Shown one piece after another: positions 29,430-37,765 of a DNA stretch of 64,000 nucleotides (positions are counted from its first letter, which is position 1; every line of letters starts with the position of its first letter). The translations under genes and the position numbers were made by a program. The DNA comes from Halomontanus rarus (GTDB lineage: Archaea > Halobacteriota > Halobacteria > Halobacteriales > Natrialbaceae): NCBI RefSeq assembly GCF_017357405.1, contig NZ_CP071597.1:558001-622000 (forward strand). The letters run 5' to 3'. The notes below the pieces were generated by a model. That model had not been told where the DNA came from. It was given only the letters and a program-made list of their open reading frames with translations, and ran no database searches.

Positions 29430-30765
29430 GGGGAGGGCTTTCGCGTGGACTCCCGTTCAATGCCATCCCCAGATCCTTCGGATCTGGTGGAGTGCGCAAG
29501 ACTACGCCTTGCGAACACCGTTCGTGATAGCAGGGGGGACGTACTCCCCACTCACGTTCAACGTCCCGCGATTCAAGCGCACGTCTACAGGTGCGCCTCC
29601 GTCGGCTGCGTTTTGCCGCCGCCGGAGATACCGAAAGCCGATGTTCTTCGCCGCGTTGTAATCCGCGTGGTTCTGATACCCGCACTTCAAGCACTCGAAG
29701 TGCTCGCCCTCACGGTTGTCCTCATGAGTACACCCGCACGTCGAACAGCGTTGGGACGTGTGGTTCGGCGGGACTTGCACGGCTTCGACGCCATGCTCTG
29801 CCGCCTTATATTCGACATACTCGTACAGGCGTCGGAACGCCCAGACGTGTTGCCACGTCGCCTGCGGGATATTCTCGCGGATATACGTTAGGTCCTCGAA
29901 GACGATGTGTGAACAGCCGTATTCGACGGCCTCCTCGATGAGTTCGTTCGCCACGCCGTGGAGGTATATCTCGAAGCGTCCGTACTCCTTTCGCCCGACG
30001 CCTTCGATGGCTTCATGAGCGGCTCGCGTTCCTCGCTGTTGAAGCGAGCCACGGCGCTTCTCATACTCTCGACGCCAGTGGTTGAACTCATCTGCCGACC
30101 AGAACGTGCCGGTTGACGTAACCGCGATGTTGTTCACCCCGAAGTCCACACCGAGGACTGTTCTGTGCTCGGTGTCGAGTTCAGGGTCGTCGGCTTCGAC
30201 CTTCCGCATGGACGCATGAAGGAACCACTCGCAATCCGACGCTGTAGGGTCGCCATGCGGAACTCGTAGTCCTCGTCATCGAGGTATGTCCGTGGGTGGC
30301 GGTCGGGGTCGTTGGGAAGGATGTAGTCACACTCAACGCGCCCATTGACGGTCGAAAGGGAGACGTGGTCGCGGTGGAACGTCGCACTACGCTTGTCGTA
30401 GACCGCACTGTCGGCGGAGAAGTAGGGTTGCGAGGTTCGTTCACCACGCTTCAACCGTGCGACACCGCTTTTGACGGCTTCAACCGCCCTCCGAACCCCC
30501 TTCTGCACGAGGTTTGCGGTAAGGTCGGTTTCGTCCCGTAGTTGGTCGTACAAGGCACGTTCTGCTTTGGCCTTCGAGGTAACGTGGTACCCGTCGTCAC
30601 CGTGCCAACACCATTCGCTCGCGGTGTTCGCACAGTGTTTGAATTGCTCGACGGTCTCACGGAGGGACGCATCAGCGTCCTGAGGCACGTCGAGCTTGAT
30701 TACGGTAGTACGGCGGTATTCCACGACGTTTCACATAACGTGGCAGTGTTACTTAAACGTCCGGG
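29430..30765 (-). mobile_element. IS1341-type (IS200/IS605 family) insertion sequence, TnpB only
   Basis: Approximate bounds. The tnpB reading frame (minus strand) is flanked at its 5' side by an end-like hairpin, CCACG/CGTGG (30721-30743), next to ACTTAAACGTCC. At its 3' side there are two hairpins: CCAGATCC-ttc-GGATCTGG (29469-29487) and GGGAG/CTCCC (29431-29454). No TnpA is present, so mobility would need help from elsewhere. In related haloarchaeal elements the 3' end of tnpB and the right end are transcribed as a small RNA, which corresponds to the omega RNA guide. A frameshift in tnpB suggests decay. Confidence 0.7.
29502..30724 (-). pseudogene. tnpB: RNA-guided nuclease TnpB, interrupted by one frameshift
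   Basis: The N-terminal part (30724 down to about 30240, GTG start) and the C-terminal part (to 29502) are in different frames. Near 30235-30245 the frame must shift by one base to give [11 protein letters not shown] before MRKVEADD. A single base deletion explains it. All RuvC residues persist: Asp in [10 protein letters not shown], Glu in IVFEDLTYI, Asp in [10 protein letters not shown]. The zinc knuckle CSTC...CLKC is also intact. This has the canonical catalytic layout, unlike the second TnpB at 42650. Sequencing error cannot be excluded. Confidence 0.8.
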
Positions 30766-32662: not shown

Positions 32663-35029
32663 GTGAATCCAACGTACCACCCGGACGACGACCGCCCAGG
32701 GTTGACCGTCGTCGATCCCGTCCAGAACGCGCGCTACCCGATCAATACGACCGCTCCGGTCGAACCGGAGTCGACCGACCCGGACTGCTTTTACTTTCCG
32801 GTCGACTCGGCGATCGCGTTCACGACGGAGAAGGTCGTCCTCCCCTACGTCGTCCCGGCGGTCGTCCGCGATCGGGAGGGGACCATGCTCCTCGAGACCG
32901 AACACCACGCCTACGAGACCCTTCCGGAGGGCGAGTACATCCTCGAGTTGATGGCCCCGATCAGACTGTCCGTCCGGGTCCGCGGAGCGGTTACGATCGC
33001 CTCTTCGGACGAGCGGTTAGCGATCGCATTCGGTGAACCGACTCGAGTGCGACTCGGTGCTCGATCCCTGCACGAACGGCCCGCCGGGACCGTCACGACG
33101 ACCGCGGAGCCGGACGATCTGGCGCGAGCCGTGTCGACGTTCGGCTCCGCACTGAAGACGCTCAGCTGCGAGCGGTCGTTACCGACGCTTCGAGGACACC
33201 CCCCGCGACTGGAACTCGGCGACGAACTTCGGATTCCGGCGGGTCTCGAGCCGCCCGAAAGCGGCGTGACGATCGTCGTCCCACCGGAGCGAACGGCCAT
33301 TTACGCGGTCAGTTCGCTCGCGTACTACCTCGGCGCGACAGTCGTCACGGGATCGAATCCGCGTCTCGAGACCGATCGCGGCTTCGAGCATTCGCTGGGC
33401 GAGACGGGTGCGGCGTTCGAACGATCGGTCGAACGCGTGCTCAGGCACGTGTTCTTCCTCGATTGTCTCACCCGGACGGAGGGGTTCTATCGGATCGACC
33501 TCTACGAACGTCGGCGAGTCGAGGAGCGACTGGACGTGTCGTTCGACGAGTTGTACGAGCAGTCGCTCGCGGAGCAACTCGCCGTCTACCTCTCGATCCC
33601 GTTCGAGACGGTCGCCGACCTCCAACCGGCCTGGCAACTCGCGACTCACGTCACACCCGCCCTCGAGAACGCGACCGTCCTCCCGTTTCTCGCCGCCGAT
33701 CTCTCGGTTATTTCGACGGTACCGGGGTCGACCGACGAGCTCGCGGACGGTTCCACCGAACCGGAGTTAGAGGGAGAGTTGGATCTGAATCTCGAGTTAG
33801 AAGCGAAAGCGGAACCCGAGTTGGAATCGGAAGCGAAACCCGAATCAGAATCGAAATCGACGTCGGAGCCGGAACCGTCGACCGATGGCGACGTCGATCC
33901 CACGATCGACGAACTCACACGGTCGACTACGCGTCCGAATCGGGACCGAAACCGGCCGTCGCTCGAATCCGAGTCGTTCGTCTCACCACCCGACGTGGAG
34001 GCGCTCGAGCAGGCGTGGCTCGGAGACGGAATTCCGATCGGTGCGAACAAACTCGTCCCCCGCGCGTTCGACAACGGCCTCGAGCGATCGCCGTCGGACG
34101 GCGACGTCGAGATCACGATCGTCTGTAACGATTCGCGGATGCTCGCCGAACTCGACGGCGAACTCTACGGAGACCGCGAGGAACTCCCCTTCGACGTCAC
34201 CGTCCACCGGGACTGTTCGGTCGCGGAGCTTCGCGCGCTGATCGCCGCGGAGACCGACTTCTTTCACTACGTCGGCCACGTCGAGGGCGGCGGGTTCGTC
34301 TGCCGCGACGGAATCCTCGAGCCGGAGTCGTTGGTCGACGTCGGCGTCGAGACGTTCCTGCTCAACGGCTGTCGATCCTACGGGACCGGTCTCGCCTTGC
34401 TCGAGGCGGGCAGCGTCGGCGGAATCGTCACGGTGAGCGACGTCGGGAATCCGGACGCGGTCGCCGTCGGCCGGTTGATCGCCCGCCTGTTAAACACCGG
34501 GTTCACGCTCCGATCTGCGGTCGACGTCGCGCGGTCCTACCGACTGGTCGGAACCCAGTACGTCGTCGTCGGTGACGGTGGACGTTCGGTCACGCAGTCG
34601 GGCGGTGGCGTCCCAAACGTCTGTCGAATCGAGACGGGACCTGAGCGCGAGTCGGCGCTCGACGGTGATCACGATACGGACGATGACGTGGCGGACGAGG
34701 ATGGAGACGGTGACGAAAACGAAAGCGAAAACGAAGACACGCAACCGAAAACGGACACAGTCACGGACACGACCACCGCACCGCTCGAGGGCCCGGTCGA
34801 TCGCTATCGGATTCGAATCCGGCTCTACCACGGCTCTCAGACCGGCATGGGTGCACTTTACATCCCGTACATCGACGGCATCGACCAGTACTTCCTGGTC
34901 GGCGGTGAACTGCCGTTGCTCGAACTGTCGGGAGGTGCACTGGCGCGATTCTTCCGACTCGAGGAGATTCCGGTCGAGGTGGAGAGCGAACTCTACTGGT
35001 CGAGTGACGGCCGGTTCGAAAATCTGTGA
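32663..35029 (+). CDS. Large protein with CHAT (caspase-like) protease domain
   Basis: 788 residues from a GTG at 32663. N-terminal region (1-355) is a globular domain without recognised motif (FYFPVDSAIAFTTEKVVLPY; VPPERTAIYAVSSLAYYLG). Then comes a disordered Glu/Pro/Lys linker (about 365-440). Residues about 480-640 look like a CHAT domain: His539 in FFHYVGHVEGG and Cys570 in FLLNGCRSYGTG, 31 residues apart, the expected catalytic dyad with the usual hydrophobic strands before each. A second acidic linker (about 673-715) precedes an 80-residue C-terminal beta domain. The gene converges on a tiny peptide gene 27 bp away. A role as an activatable protease is inferred. Confidence 0.7.
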   Translation: MNPTYHPDDDRPGLTVVDPVQNARYPINTTAPVEPESTDPDCFYFPVDSAIAFTTEKVVLPYVVPAVVRDREGTMLLETEHHAYETLPEGEYILELMAPIRLSVRVRGAVTIASSDERLAIAFGEPTRVRLGARSLHERPAGTVTTTAEPDDLARAVSTFGSALKTLSCERSLPTLRGHPPRLELGDELRIPAGLEPPESGVTIVVPPERTAIYAVSSLAYYLGATVVTGSNPRLETDRGFEHSLGETGAAFERSVERVLRHVFFLDCLTRTEGFYRIDLYERRRVEERLDVSFDELYEQSLAEQLAVYLSIPFETVADLQPAWQLATHVTPALENATVLPFLAADLSVISTVPGSTDELADGSTEPELEGELDLNLELEAKAEPELESEAKPESESKSTSEPEPSTDGDVDPTIDELTRSTTRPNRDRNRPSLESESFVSPPDVEALEQAWLGDGIPIGANKLVPRAFDNGLERSPSDGDVEITIVCNDSRMLAELDGELYGDREELPFDVTVHRDCSVAELRALIAAETDFFHYVGHVEGGGFVCRDGILEPESLVDVGVETFLLNGCRSYGTGLALLEAGSVGGIVTVSDVGNPDAVAVGRLIARLLNTGFTLRSAVDVARSYRLVGTQYVVVGDGGRSVTQSGGGVPNVCRIETGPERESALDGDHDTDDDVADEDGDGDENESENEDTQPKTDTVTDTTTAPLEGPVDRYRIRIRLYHGSQTGMGALYIPYIDGIDQYFLVGGELPLLELSGGALARFFRLEEIPVEVESELYWSSDGRFENL

Positions 35030-35056
35030 GTTCGGATCGATTCGGTCGATCCCGAC

Positions 35057-35191
35057 TTAGCTGATGACGCCGCCGTTACCGAACGGCTTGAGCACTACTT
35101 GAGAGAGTAACAGACTGGCGCTGAACAGGGCGCCCATCATTCGAGGATGCTTCGCGAGATACGACCGGAGCGTGGTATTTCTATCGGACAT
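35057..35191 (-). CDS. 44-residue hydrophobic peptide next to the CHAT gene
   Basis: Read leftward from the ATG at 35189-35191 to TAA at 35057-35059. The protein starts MSDRNTTLRSYLAKHPRMMG, then a short hydrophobic helix (ALFSASLLLSQVVL) and a small tail ending GNGGVIS. A TATAA element (35218-35222) is centred about 29 bp before the ATG, right for a leaderless transcript, which argues for a real gene. From memory, haloarchaea carry families of small peptides with the same HPRMxGxLF core; no function is known to me. Its 3' end faces the CHAT gene end 27 bp away. Confidence 0.7.
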   Translation of the reverse strand: MSDRNTTLRSYLAKHPRMMGALFSASLLLSQVVLKPFGNGGVIS

Positions 35192-35213: not shown

Positions 35214-35224
35214 ACAGTTATAGG
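35214..35224 (-). promoter_or_regulatory. TATA box of the small peptide gene
   Basis: Minus-strand CCTATAACTG; centre about 28 bp before the ATG, predicting transcription from at or next to the start codon. Confidence 0.55.
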
Positions 35225-35386
35225 TCTATTTCAGGATTACCGGTCAATCCGGCCGACCGAACGAAACGCGACGGTCGGCGATTTACTCCCGCTCCACTCG
35301 TCTCGTCGCGGATTCAGTTCTGTGCCACTTGCTATCATTCATCGGTGGCGGGAAACCTTTTATTTGTTCACTTGCTATCACTCACC

Positions 35387-37030: not shown

Positions 37031-37765
37031 TCACCGCTCCTCGAACGCCGACCGTACGAGCCTGGACTGCGCTTTCTGGAGGTGTTCGGCCGCCGTACTC
37101 GGCGAGCACTCGAGGACGCGAGCGACGTCTTCGTGGCTCGCCTGTCGGGGAACCTCGAAGTAGCCCAGTTCGACGCCGACGCGGGCGGCCTCGCGCTGGC
37201 GGTCGCTCAACTCGCTCGTCGGATCGACCGCGGGTTGGGCCTCGCCAATGCCTTCGATCGTGACGTCGAACCTGTCGGGGACCGATTCGTGGGCCCGCGA
37301 GAGCACGCGATCCTCGCCGACGACGGTAAACGTCGCACCGGTCTCGTCGTACTCGATCGGCCCCGCCATCAGAATGCCATCCCTCGAGAGCGACTGGAAG
37401 AGGGACCTCGAGTCGTCGGTCCCCTCGTCCCGGAGGTAGACGTAGGCTTCCTCCGTCTTCGTCGTCGCCGCCGGACCGGAGTCGGTTCCGTTTCCGCCTC
37501 CGTCGCTCGGCGGGTTCTCGCCGCCGGCCTCGGTCTCGGTCCCGTCGACGCGAAACACCTCGTACTCCGCCAGCTGGTCGATCCCCTCGAGCGCCGACTC
37601 GATCCCGTCGATCTCACCCAGAACCCGATGGAGCATCGTCAGCGTCCCGTCTTCGGTCACGTTCCAGTGGACGCTGGACGCCCGCTCGACGGACGGCGAC
37701 GTCGTCAACAGTTCGTAGACCGGGTGGACGCCACCGGGTGCGAGGTGGAGTCGAACGCGTTTCAC
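37031..37765 (-). CDS. HTH_10 (bacterio-opsin activator type) transcriptional regulator
   Basis: 244 residues. C-terminal HTH_10 domain (about 185-240): ELSDRQREAARVGVELGYFE, PRQASHEDVARVLECSPSTA and HLQKAQSRLVRSAF, the sigma-70-region-4-like fold typical of the haloarchaeal Bat family. The N-terminal part (1-170) is a probable sensor or dimer domain with a Gly/Asp/Ser-rich low-complexity insert near 80-105. It has no PAS or GAF motif I can recognise. Converges with the GTPBP1-like gene and diverges from the epimerase gene at 37851, a possible target. Confidence 0.87.
   Translation of the reverse strand: MKRVRLHLAPGGVHPVYELLTTSPSVERASSVHWNVTEDGTLTMLHRVLGEIDGIESALEGIDQLAEYEVFRVDGTETEAGGENPPSDGGGNGTDSGPAATTKTEEAYVYLRDEGTDDSRSLFQSLSRDGILMAGPIEYDETGATFTVVGEDRVLSRAHESVPDRFDVTIEGIGEAQPAVDPTSELSDRQREAARVGVELGYFEVPRQASHEDVARVLECSPSTAAEHLQKAQSRLVRSAFEER

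Follow-up and report, generated by a model that had tools for sequence, protein, structure and literature searches.

A putative CHAT-like cysteine protease and its small convergent partner in haloarchaea

INTRODUCTION

In Halomontanus rarus, a gene for a protein of 788 residues runs head-on toward a gene for a peptide of only 44 residues, which raises the question of whether the two belong together and, if so, what the large protein would do with the small one. A preliminary description of the window (the whole stretch of 64,000 nucleotides that was analyzed) had read them as a CHAT-type protease with a small membrane-active peptide whose 3′ end lies 27 bp away. Both open reading frames (ORFs) are present, and the spacing is as described. 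The features considered below are as follows (window positions, strand, feature, and evidence).

32663..35029, +, predicted CHAT-like (clan CD) cysteine protease gene, 788 aa, GTG start (ORF; predicted fold; homologues)
32663..33262, +, N-terminal beta-rich domain, about residues 1-200, a sandwich with weak mutarotase/YidC-like matches only (structure model)
33290..33727, +, alpha/beta region before the catalytic region, about residues 210-355 (several separase and TPR-CHAT alignments start here; model range 210-645)
33731..33961, +, first acidic disordered linker, residues 357-433 (pLDDT below 50; mostly missing from homologues)
34001..34582, +, predicted catalytic CHAT-like region, residues 447-640 (structure model and structural matches)
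34277..34279, +, His539, putative catalytic His, directly after strand 531-537 (model; alignment)
34292..34294, +, Gly544 (residue counts by partner tail type)
34370..34372, +, Cys570, putative catalytic Cys, directly after strand 562-568 (model; alignment)
34676..34792, +, second acidic linker, residues 672-710 (pLDDT below 50)
34796..35026, +, conserved small C-terminal domain, residues 712-788 (pLDDT mostly 83-91; G730, P735, P770, and W779 conserved)
35030..35056, no strand, gap of 27 bp between the convergent genes (ORF ends)
35057..35191, -, DUF7503 (PF24335) peptide gene, 44 aa, ATG start: polar head with H-P-R, one hydrophobic helix, and a 7-residue tail, GNGGVIS, without Gly-Pro (Pfam match and alignment)
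35218..35232, -, BRE/TATA-like element of the peptide gene, GAAAT ... CTATAA, -41 to -27 (upstream comparison of partners)

The protease gene is neighbored in the window by genes for a DnaJ-domain protein and an EF-Tu-like GTPase (Pfam), neither of which is a conserved partner in the comparison of 80 loci described below. Elsewhere in the window, an overlapping pair of ORFs in different frames (29502-30724, -) resembles, judging from the translations, a transposon TnpB-like gene broken in two, and a haloarchaeal HTH_10 regulator with an HVO_0513-type N terminus (37031-37765, -; Pfam) showed no relation to the protease-peptide pair.

RESULTS

Predicted fold of the protease

The 788-residue protein matches nothing above the cut-off in Pfam, nothing in NCBIfam or PADLOC, and no PDB entry by sequence, and a search of the PDB sequences with the profile of its family returned only two glycerol-1-phosphate dehydrogenases (E = 0.27). 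The CHAT model PF12770 found no match in the window's own genome, the 788-residue protein included, and it matches 1 of 67 aligned relatives (E = 1e-4). Homologues were nevertheless plentiful in protein searches (1318 of 7999 scored candidates at E ≤ 1e-3), and some of the best 120, which were listed, carry UniRef or NCBI names such as “CHAT domain-containing” or “caspase family.”

A structure model of the protein matches SAVED-CHAT, separase, TPR-CHAT, and gingipain (model range 210-645). On the strength of this model, the protein is predicted to have a caspase-like alpha/beta (CHAT/clan CD) fold and is a putative protease. The preliminary description had singled out His539 and Cys570 as a CHAT-like pair between two disordered acidic linkers. 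Both residues are present, are placed in the model as in clan CD proteases, within a predicted peptidase rather than a nonpeptidase fold, and do not vary among the 67 rows of the family alignment (His and Cys are each found in 192 of 195 tree rows); the linkers coincide with the low-confidence stretches of the model at residues 357-433 and 672-710. The alpha/beta region at about residues 210-355 is possibly a pseudo-caspase subdomain, going by the model. No SAVED domain was matched by Pfam in the window protein or in 67 family members, nor were TPR repeats matched in the window protein or among the families matched by those 67 members, the N-terminal model being beta.

Pairing of the two genes

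We compared 80 DUF7503 loci, which were hand-picked for genus spread from the best-scoring listed matches with some neighboring positions already known, which means that the sample was not drawn blind; the DUF model that located the central gene was built from these same 80 loci. A protease-family gene is convergent to DUF7503 in all 80 and lies within 260 bp of it in 79, the only locus beyond that distance being L136 (4471 bp). Likewise, among 81 full-length proteases in 80 loci chosen by the protease, 71 have a convergent DUF7503 within 600 bp. As for the remaining 10, four (L189, L194, L202, and L205) face another convergent ORF that ends in Gly-Pro, L206 is partly masked with a visible tail that ends in Gly-Pro, L171 has a DUF7503 about 0.8 kb away, and for L179, L192, L218, and L231 no convergent partner was seen. 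L192 genuinely departs from the convergent arrangement: its DUF7503 (L192:6470-6628) lies on the strand of the protease, 1366 bp downstream, and there is no second protease near it at that locus.

In a genome survey of the class, the protease was present in 365 and DUF7503 in 335 of 391 genomes. Of the 26 genomes without protease, 20 are listed, and none of these 20 is in the DUF7503-positive list (hypergeometric P = 4e-19, an optimistic value because the rows are related). DUF7503 without the protease was found neither in the 80 sampled loci nor in the genome lists, although the small gene might have turned up in unrelated places had the pairing been spurious. Chance is thus rejected as its cause by the 80/80 convergence, the 71/81 of the reverse sample, and the hypergeometric value. 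The protease-peptide pairing, which had been suspected from a single locus, is genuine and far beyond chance. It recurs within the window's own genome, which holds five protease-family genes and three DUF7503 genes, each of the latter convergent with one protease; the fourth protease faces, a few bases away, a 42-aa ORF that ends in VSIYGGP, and the fifth (G000 C1:1144705-1146693) has lost the catalytic pair and has no partner that we could see.

Beyond the class, distant relatives of the protease occur in only 4 of 392 phylum genomes searched (one other family), none with DUF7503, and 11 stretches of viral contigs matched a pattern without any of them encoding a protease relative. In 25 of the 80 loci (L068:4039-4773 and 24 more of L061-L140), the gene immediately 5′ of the protease, in the same orientation, is DUF7504 (PF24336), a possible third component; in the window there is no DUF7504 at this place. 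In 6 of the 80 loci (L103, L107, L122, L131, L132, and L092), a second protease-family gene lies behind the peptide gene and is divergent from it, and L154 and L092 carry two protease-DUF7503 pairs apiece.

The gene arrangement would also suit a role at the RNA level, in which transcription of the peptide gene would run on into the protease gene and give RNA antisense to its mRNA, the peptide itself being secondary: all 80 loci are convergent, the median gap between the genes is 12 bp (157 unique pairs, stop codons left out of the measure), and the promoter is conserved (see below). However, this explanation accounts neither for the conservation of the peptide at the protein level nor for the unrelated tails ending in Gly-Pro, and both genes are kept in L171 and L136 although they are far apart there (about 0.8 kb and 4.5 kb, respectively). 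We regard an antisense role as highly improbable.

The DUF7503 peptide, its promoter, and its tail

The 44-aa ORF matches the Pfam family DUF7503 over residues 6-32 (E = 6.9e-13; 48.4 bits versus a cut-off of 27). Across 157 unique pairs, in which the partner is 39 to 84 aa long, the general DUF7503 layout is a polar head, an H/N-P-R/K motif, a hydrophobic helix (mean hydropathy of 1.41 in this form), a Gln (154/157), and a C-terminal tail. The Pro of the motif is kept in all 157 aligned partners, and the Gly, Phe, and Gln positions are near-invariant. Upstream regions were compared for the 151 of the 157 partners that have a usable start and 60 upstream bases; all 151 have an ATG start codon, preceded by a shared AT-rich, BRE/TATA-like tract whose end lies about 27 bases upstream. 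CTATAA at -32 to -27 of the window peptide gene fits this tract, in agreement with the putative leaderless promoter of its own that had been proposed for it.

Partners end in Gly-Pro in 121 of 157 cases, versus 9 of 3086 long ORFs of the same loci. In 113 of these 121, the tail consists of 8 or 9 residues after a conserved Ala, and 20 of 816 residues in the Gly-Pro tails are charged. The 36 other partners, that of the window included, mostly have a 7-residue tail (29/36), i.e., the same tail minus its last two residues. In the tree, the window belongs to a supported clade of 12 non-Gly-Pro rows, which is enclosed in a set of 35 rows (29 non-Gly-Pro, 3 partnerless, 2 Gly-Pro, and 1 displaced); the non-Gly-Pro state involves about nine changes overall. 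The preliminary description had considered Arg, Lys, and Pro-rich cut sites; the conserved element is instead the uncharged C-terminal tail, of which the window has a shortened copy without Gly-Pro. Candidate cut positions (between A and G, between D and G, and between KR and V) are not conserved across partner types.

Partners lacking DUF7503

A small convergent ORF ending in Gly-Pro lies within 100 bp of 18 of 38 proteases without DUF7503, versus 7 of 768 other gene ends of the same loci; the 38 include seven Haloplanus and two near-copy Halococcus rows, leave out L202 (the same locus as L235) and the partly masked L206, and score L171 (DUF7503 about 0.8 kb off) and L192 (same-strand DUF7503) as partnerless. 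The non-DUF7503 partners are of several kinds, namely, Halococcus (TYSGP), AKRVSTYGGP-type, SSSPYTGP-type, long-tailed helix types, and Haloplanus repeats. No membrane helix is obvious in the partners found in Haloplanus, in Halococcus, and beside several divergent paralogues (those of the AKRVSTYGGP type too), which have only the tail ending in Gly-Pro in common. This C-terminal tail, usually ending in Gly-Pro, is the sole feature common to otherwise unlike partners. TbsP-type transcription regulators are encoded near two proteases with non-DUF7503 partners (L149:4467-5357, -; L189:8413-9267, +).

In seven Haloplanus loci, the membrane helix is gone and the tail is present 2 to 13 times: six genomes have 4 to 13 tail units, three bases off the end of the protease ORF, and a Haloplanus MAG has two (tandem-repeat loci L233-L238, L194, and L202). 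The unit consists of 13 residues, [YFMSTVL][TNV]ADGN[GS][GS]GISGP, with copies that are nearly identical in protein sequence. These partners keep the DUF7503 start (MSE-DSGTV), and their N terminus and upstream region match an ordinary DUF7503 of a congener (MSETDSGTVATYLKENPRM..., L239); the helix was thus lost, and the tail amplified, at the original locus. Two Haloplanus members of the sample (L069 and L239) retain the ordinary DUF7503. The clearest indication that selection acts on the tail comes from this loss of the helix together with repetition of the tail, and it is the tail, rather than the helix, that looks functional from these comparisons. Both the Haloplanus repeats and the SSSPYTGP-tailed partners contain an Asp-Gly bond, located nine residues ahead of their Pro end. 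When the Haloplanus repeat protein was used as the query of a protein search, 8000 candidates were scored and no match was returned, for which low complexity is possibly to blame.

The helix-less partners bear directly on the proposal that the protease releases a pore former or toxin. In known systems, CHAT and caspase proteases target partner proteins, and a hydrophobic helix beside a CHAT protease would fit a caspase/gasdermin-like pair that frees a membrane-active peptide. However, the 44 residues include no pro-domain or inhibitory domain, the helix is missing in several lineages that keep the module, PADLOC has no match for either protein, and no relative of the protease was found in viral contigs. 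Because partners without a helix exist, a pore-forming toxin is rejected as the general role, and we consider a released pore former very unlikely. Of the toxin system that had been put forward, the predicted protease fold and the pairing stand, whereas the released toxin as a general role falls with the helix-less partners of Haloplanus, Halococcus, and the paralogues.

Partner presence and the active site

The His/Cys pair is kept in all 177 partner-bearing proteases examined (175 tree rows plus L292 and L293) and is lost in 8 of 29 partnerless ones (L150, L279, L280, L283, and L287-L290, which are pseudoenzymes). Because losses are confined to partnerless proteases, the partner goes with a working (predicted) active site (Fisher P = 6e-8, again optimistic because the rows are related).

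This association weighs against a role of the peptide in recruiting the protease to the membrane, as an anchor or adaptor that has the tail for a docking motif. One hydrophobic helix in the DUF7503 form, with its invariant Pro and near-invariant Gly, Phe, and Gln positions, would be in keeping with an anchor; however, Haloplanus, Halococcus, and AKRVSTYGGP-type partners lack an obvious helix, and loss of the partner along with the catalytic pair points to catalysis. We therefore think an anchoring role improbable.

More serious is the possibility that the partner is a pseudosubstrate inhibitor or regulator whose tail is docked near the active site and keeps the protease inactive, with the Haloplanus repeats raising the valency. 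Securin holds separase inactive in this manner of pairing, and the predicted fold is near that of separase; moreover, the partner is seen only alongside an intact dyad, it has a conserved separate promoter, and the repeats suit multivalent binding. It is awkward for a vital inhibitor that 21 of the 29 partnerless proteases keep the dyad, although a partner elsewhere in those genomes is possible. Since intact partnerless proteases exist and DUF7503 without a protease was not found, a substrate suits the data better than a vital inhibitor, with the limit that a distant or unrecognized partner would be missed in this asymmetry. We consider inhibition rather unlikely, though the next most likely role after that of a substrate.

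Position 544, five residues C-terminal to His539, is occupied by Gly in every protease that has a Gly-Pro partner (139/139), versus 13 of 36 that have other tails; the window protein keeps it. All losses fall in the larger clade of the window, and elsewhere in the tree the non-Gly-Pro rows retain Gly. Tested for covariation with tail type, the protease residues yield 5 supported independent pairs (8 on all branches), fewer than the 6 needed for 0.05, and none is significant among the rows listed. The association of Gly544 with tail type is thus a lead only, not significant once relatedness is counted.

DISCUSSION

The best explanation of these results is a conserved haloarchaeal module in which a putative CHAT-like cysteine protease, predicted to be soluble, is combined with a small partner dedicated to it, arranged head-on and with its own predicted promoter. 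Our leading interpretation of how the two would work together, to which we give somewhat less than an even chance, is that of a dedicated protease with its substrate, recognized by the tail. The protease would bind the C-terminal tail of the partner, which in most lineages would be held at the membrane by its single helix, and would cut it at or near the tail once switched on, thereby releasing a tail peptide or altering the anchored remnant. Tails in the clade of the window are shorter by two residues and stop where Gly-Pro would follow, as if they were pre-trimmed or recognized differently.

Several points speak against this substrate interpretation. (i) The shared tail would fit an inhibitor or a docking ligand too. 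(ii) By the positive-inside rule, the membrane form would expose its tail on the outer side of the cell and not on that of the protease, which has no evident signal peptide; helix-less partners are free of this problem. (iii) The candidate cut positions vary from one partner type to another. (iv) Covariation of protease residues with tail type is not significant among the rows listed. (v) The DUF7503 of L192 is neither adjacent nor convergent.

A broader proposal, which we regard as speculative and on balance doubtful, is a near-universal haloarchaeal peptide pathway of caspase type. The protease would free or trim a short uncharged signal tail from a pro-peptide, intracellular or at the membrane, each protease lineage having its cognate tail; the Haloplanus partners would then be polyprotein-style precursors with up to 13 copies, and the pathway would be a candidate source of caspase-like activity. 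A 2012 paper describes strong caspase-like activity in extracts of Haloferax volcanii, with LEVD, VEID, and IETD substrates being cut, and it reports no clear homologues of the eukaryotic enzymes in archaeal genomes (PMC3615174). H. volcanii has DUF7503 (it served as a control of our DUF7503 search), and we infer that the protease family is a candidate source of this activity.

Most of the haloarchaeal genomes sampled carry the protease and DUF7503, yet neither part has a name and the pair is apparently undescribed: our literature search found no publication that names DUF7503, DUF7504, PF24335, or PF24336 and none that treats the CHAT domain together with haloarchaea. For a caspase-like activity with no gene known to underlie it (PMC3615174), the family offers a concrete, deletable gene candidate in a tractable archaeon. 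The Haloplanus repeats are a natural experiment that parts the tail from the helix, and the recognition element would be addressable with short synthetic peptides.

The haloarchaeal pair resembles several known systems and differs from each. The predicted fold matches the SAVED-CHAT protease (PDB 8tl0), but the haloarchaeal protein has no SAVED match, begins with a beta domain, and has a tail peptide as its neighbor. It also matches TPR-CHAT/Csx29 of Craspase (PDB 8d9f and others), from which it differs in having no TPR match and an N-terminal domain that is beta. In comparison with separase-securin, the fold matches separase, whereas the haloarchaeal partner has only 39 to 84 aa and a short C-terminal tail motif, with no sequence relation seen. 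Unlike the partner in a caspase-gasdermin pair, that of the window is a DUF7503 peptide of 44 aa without a gasdermin fold, and unlike a classical co-directional toxin-antitoxin operon, the two genes are convergent in 80 of 80 loci. In Pfam, DUF7503 (PF24335), to which the peptide belongs, and DUF7504 (PF24336) are both entered as families of “unknown function.”
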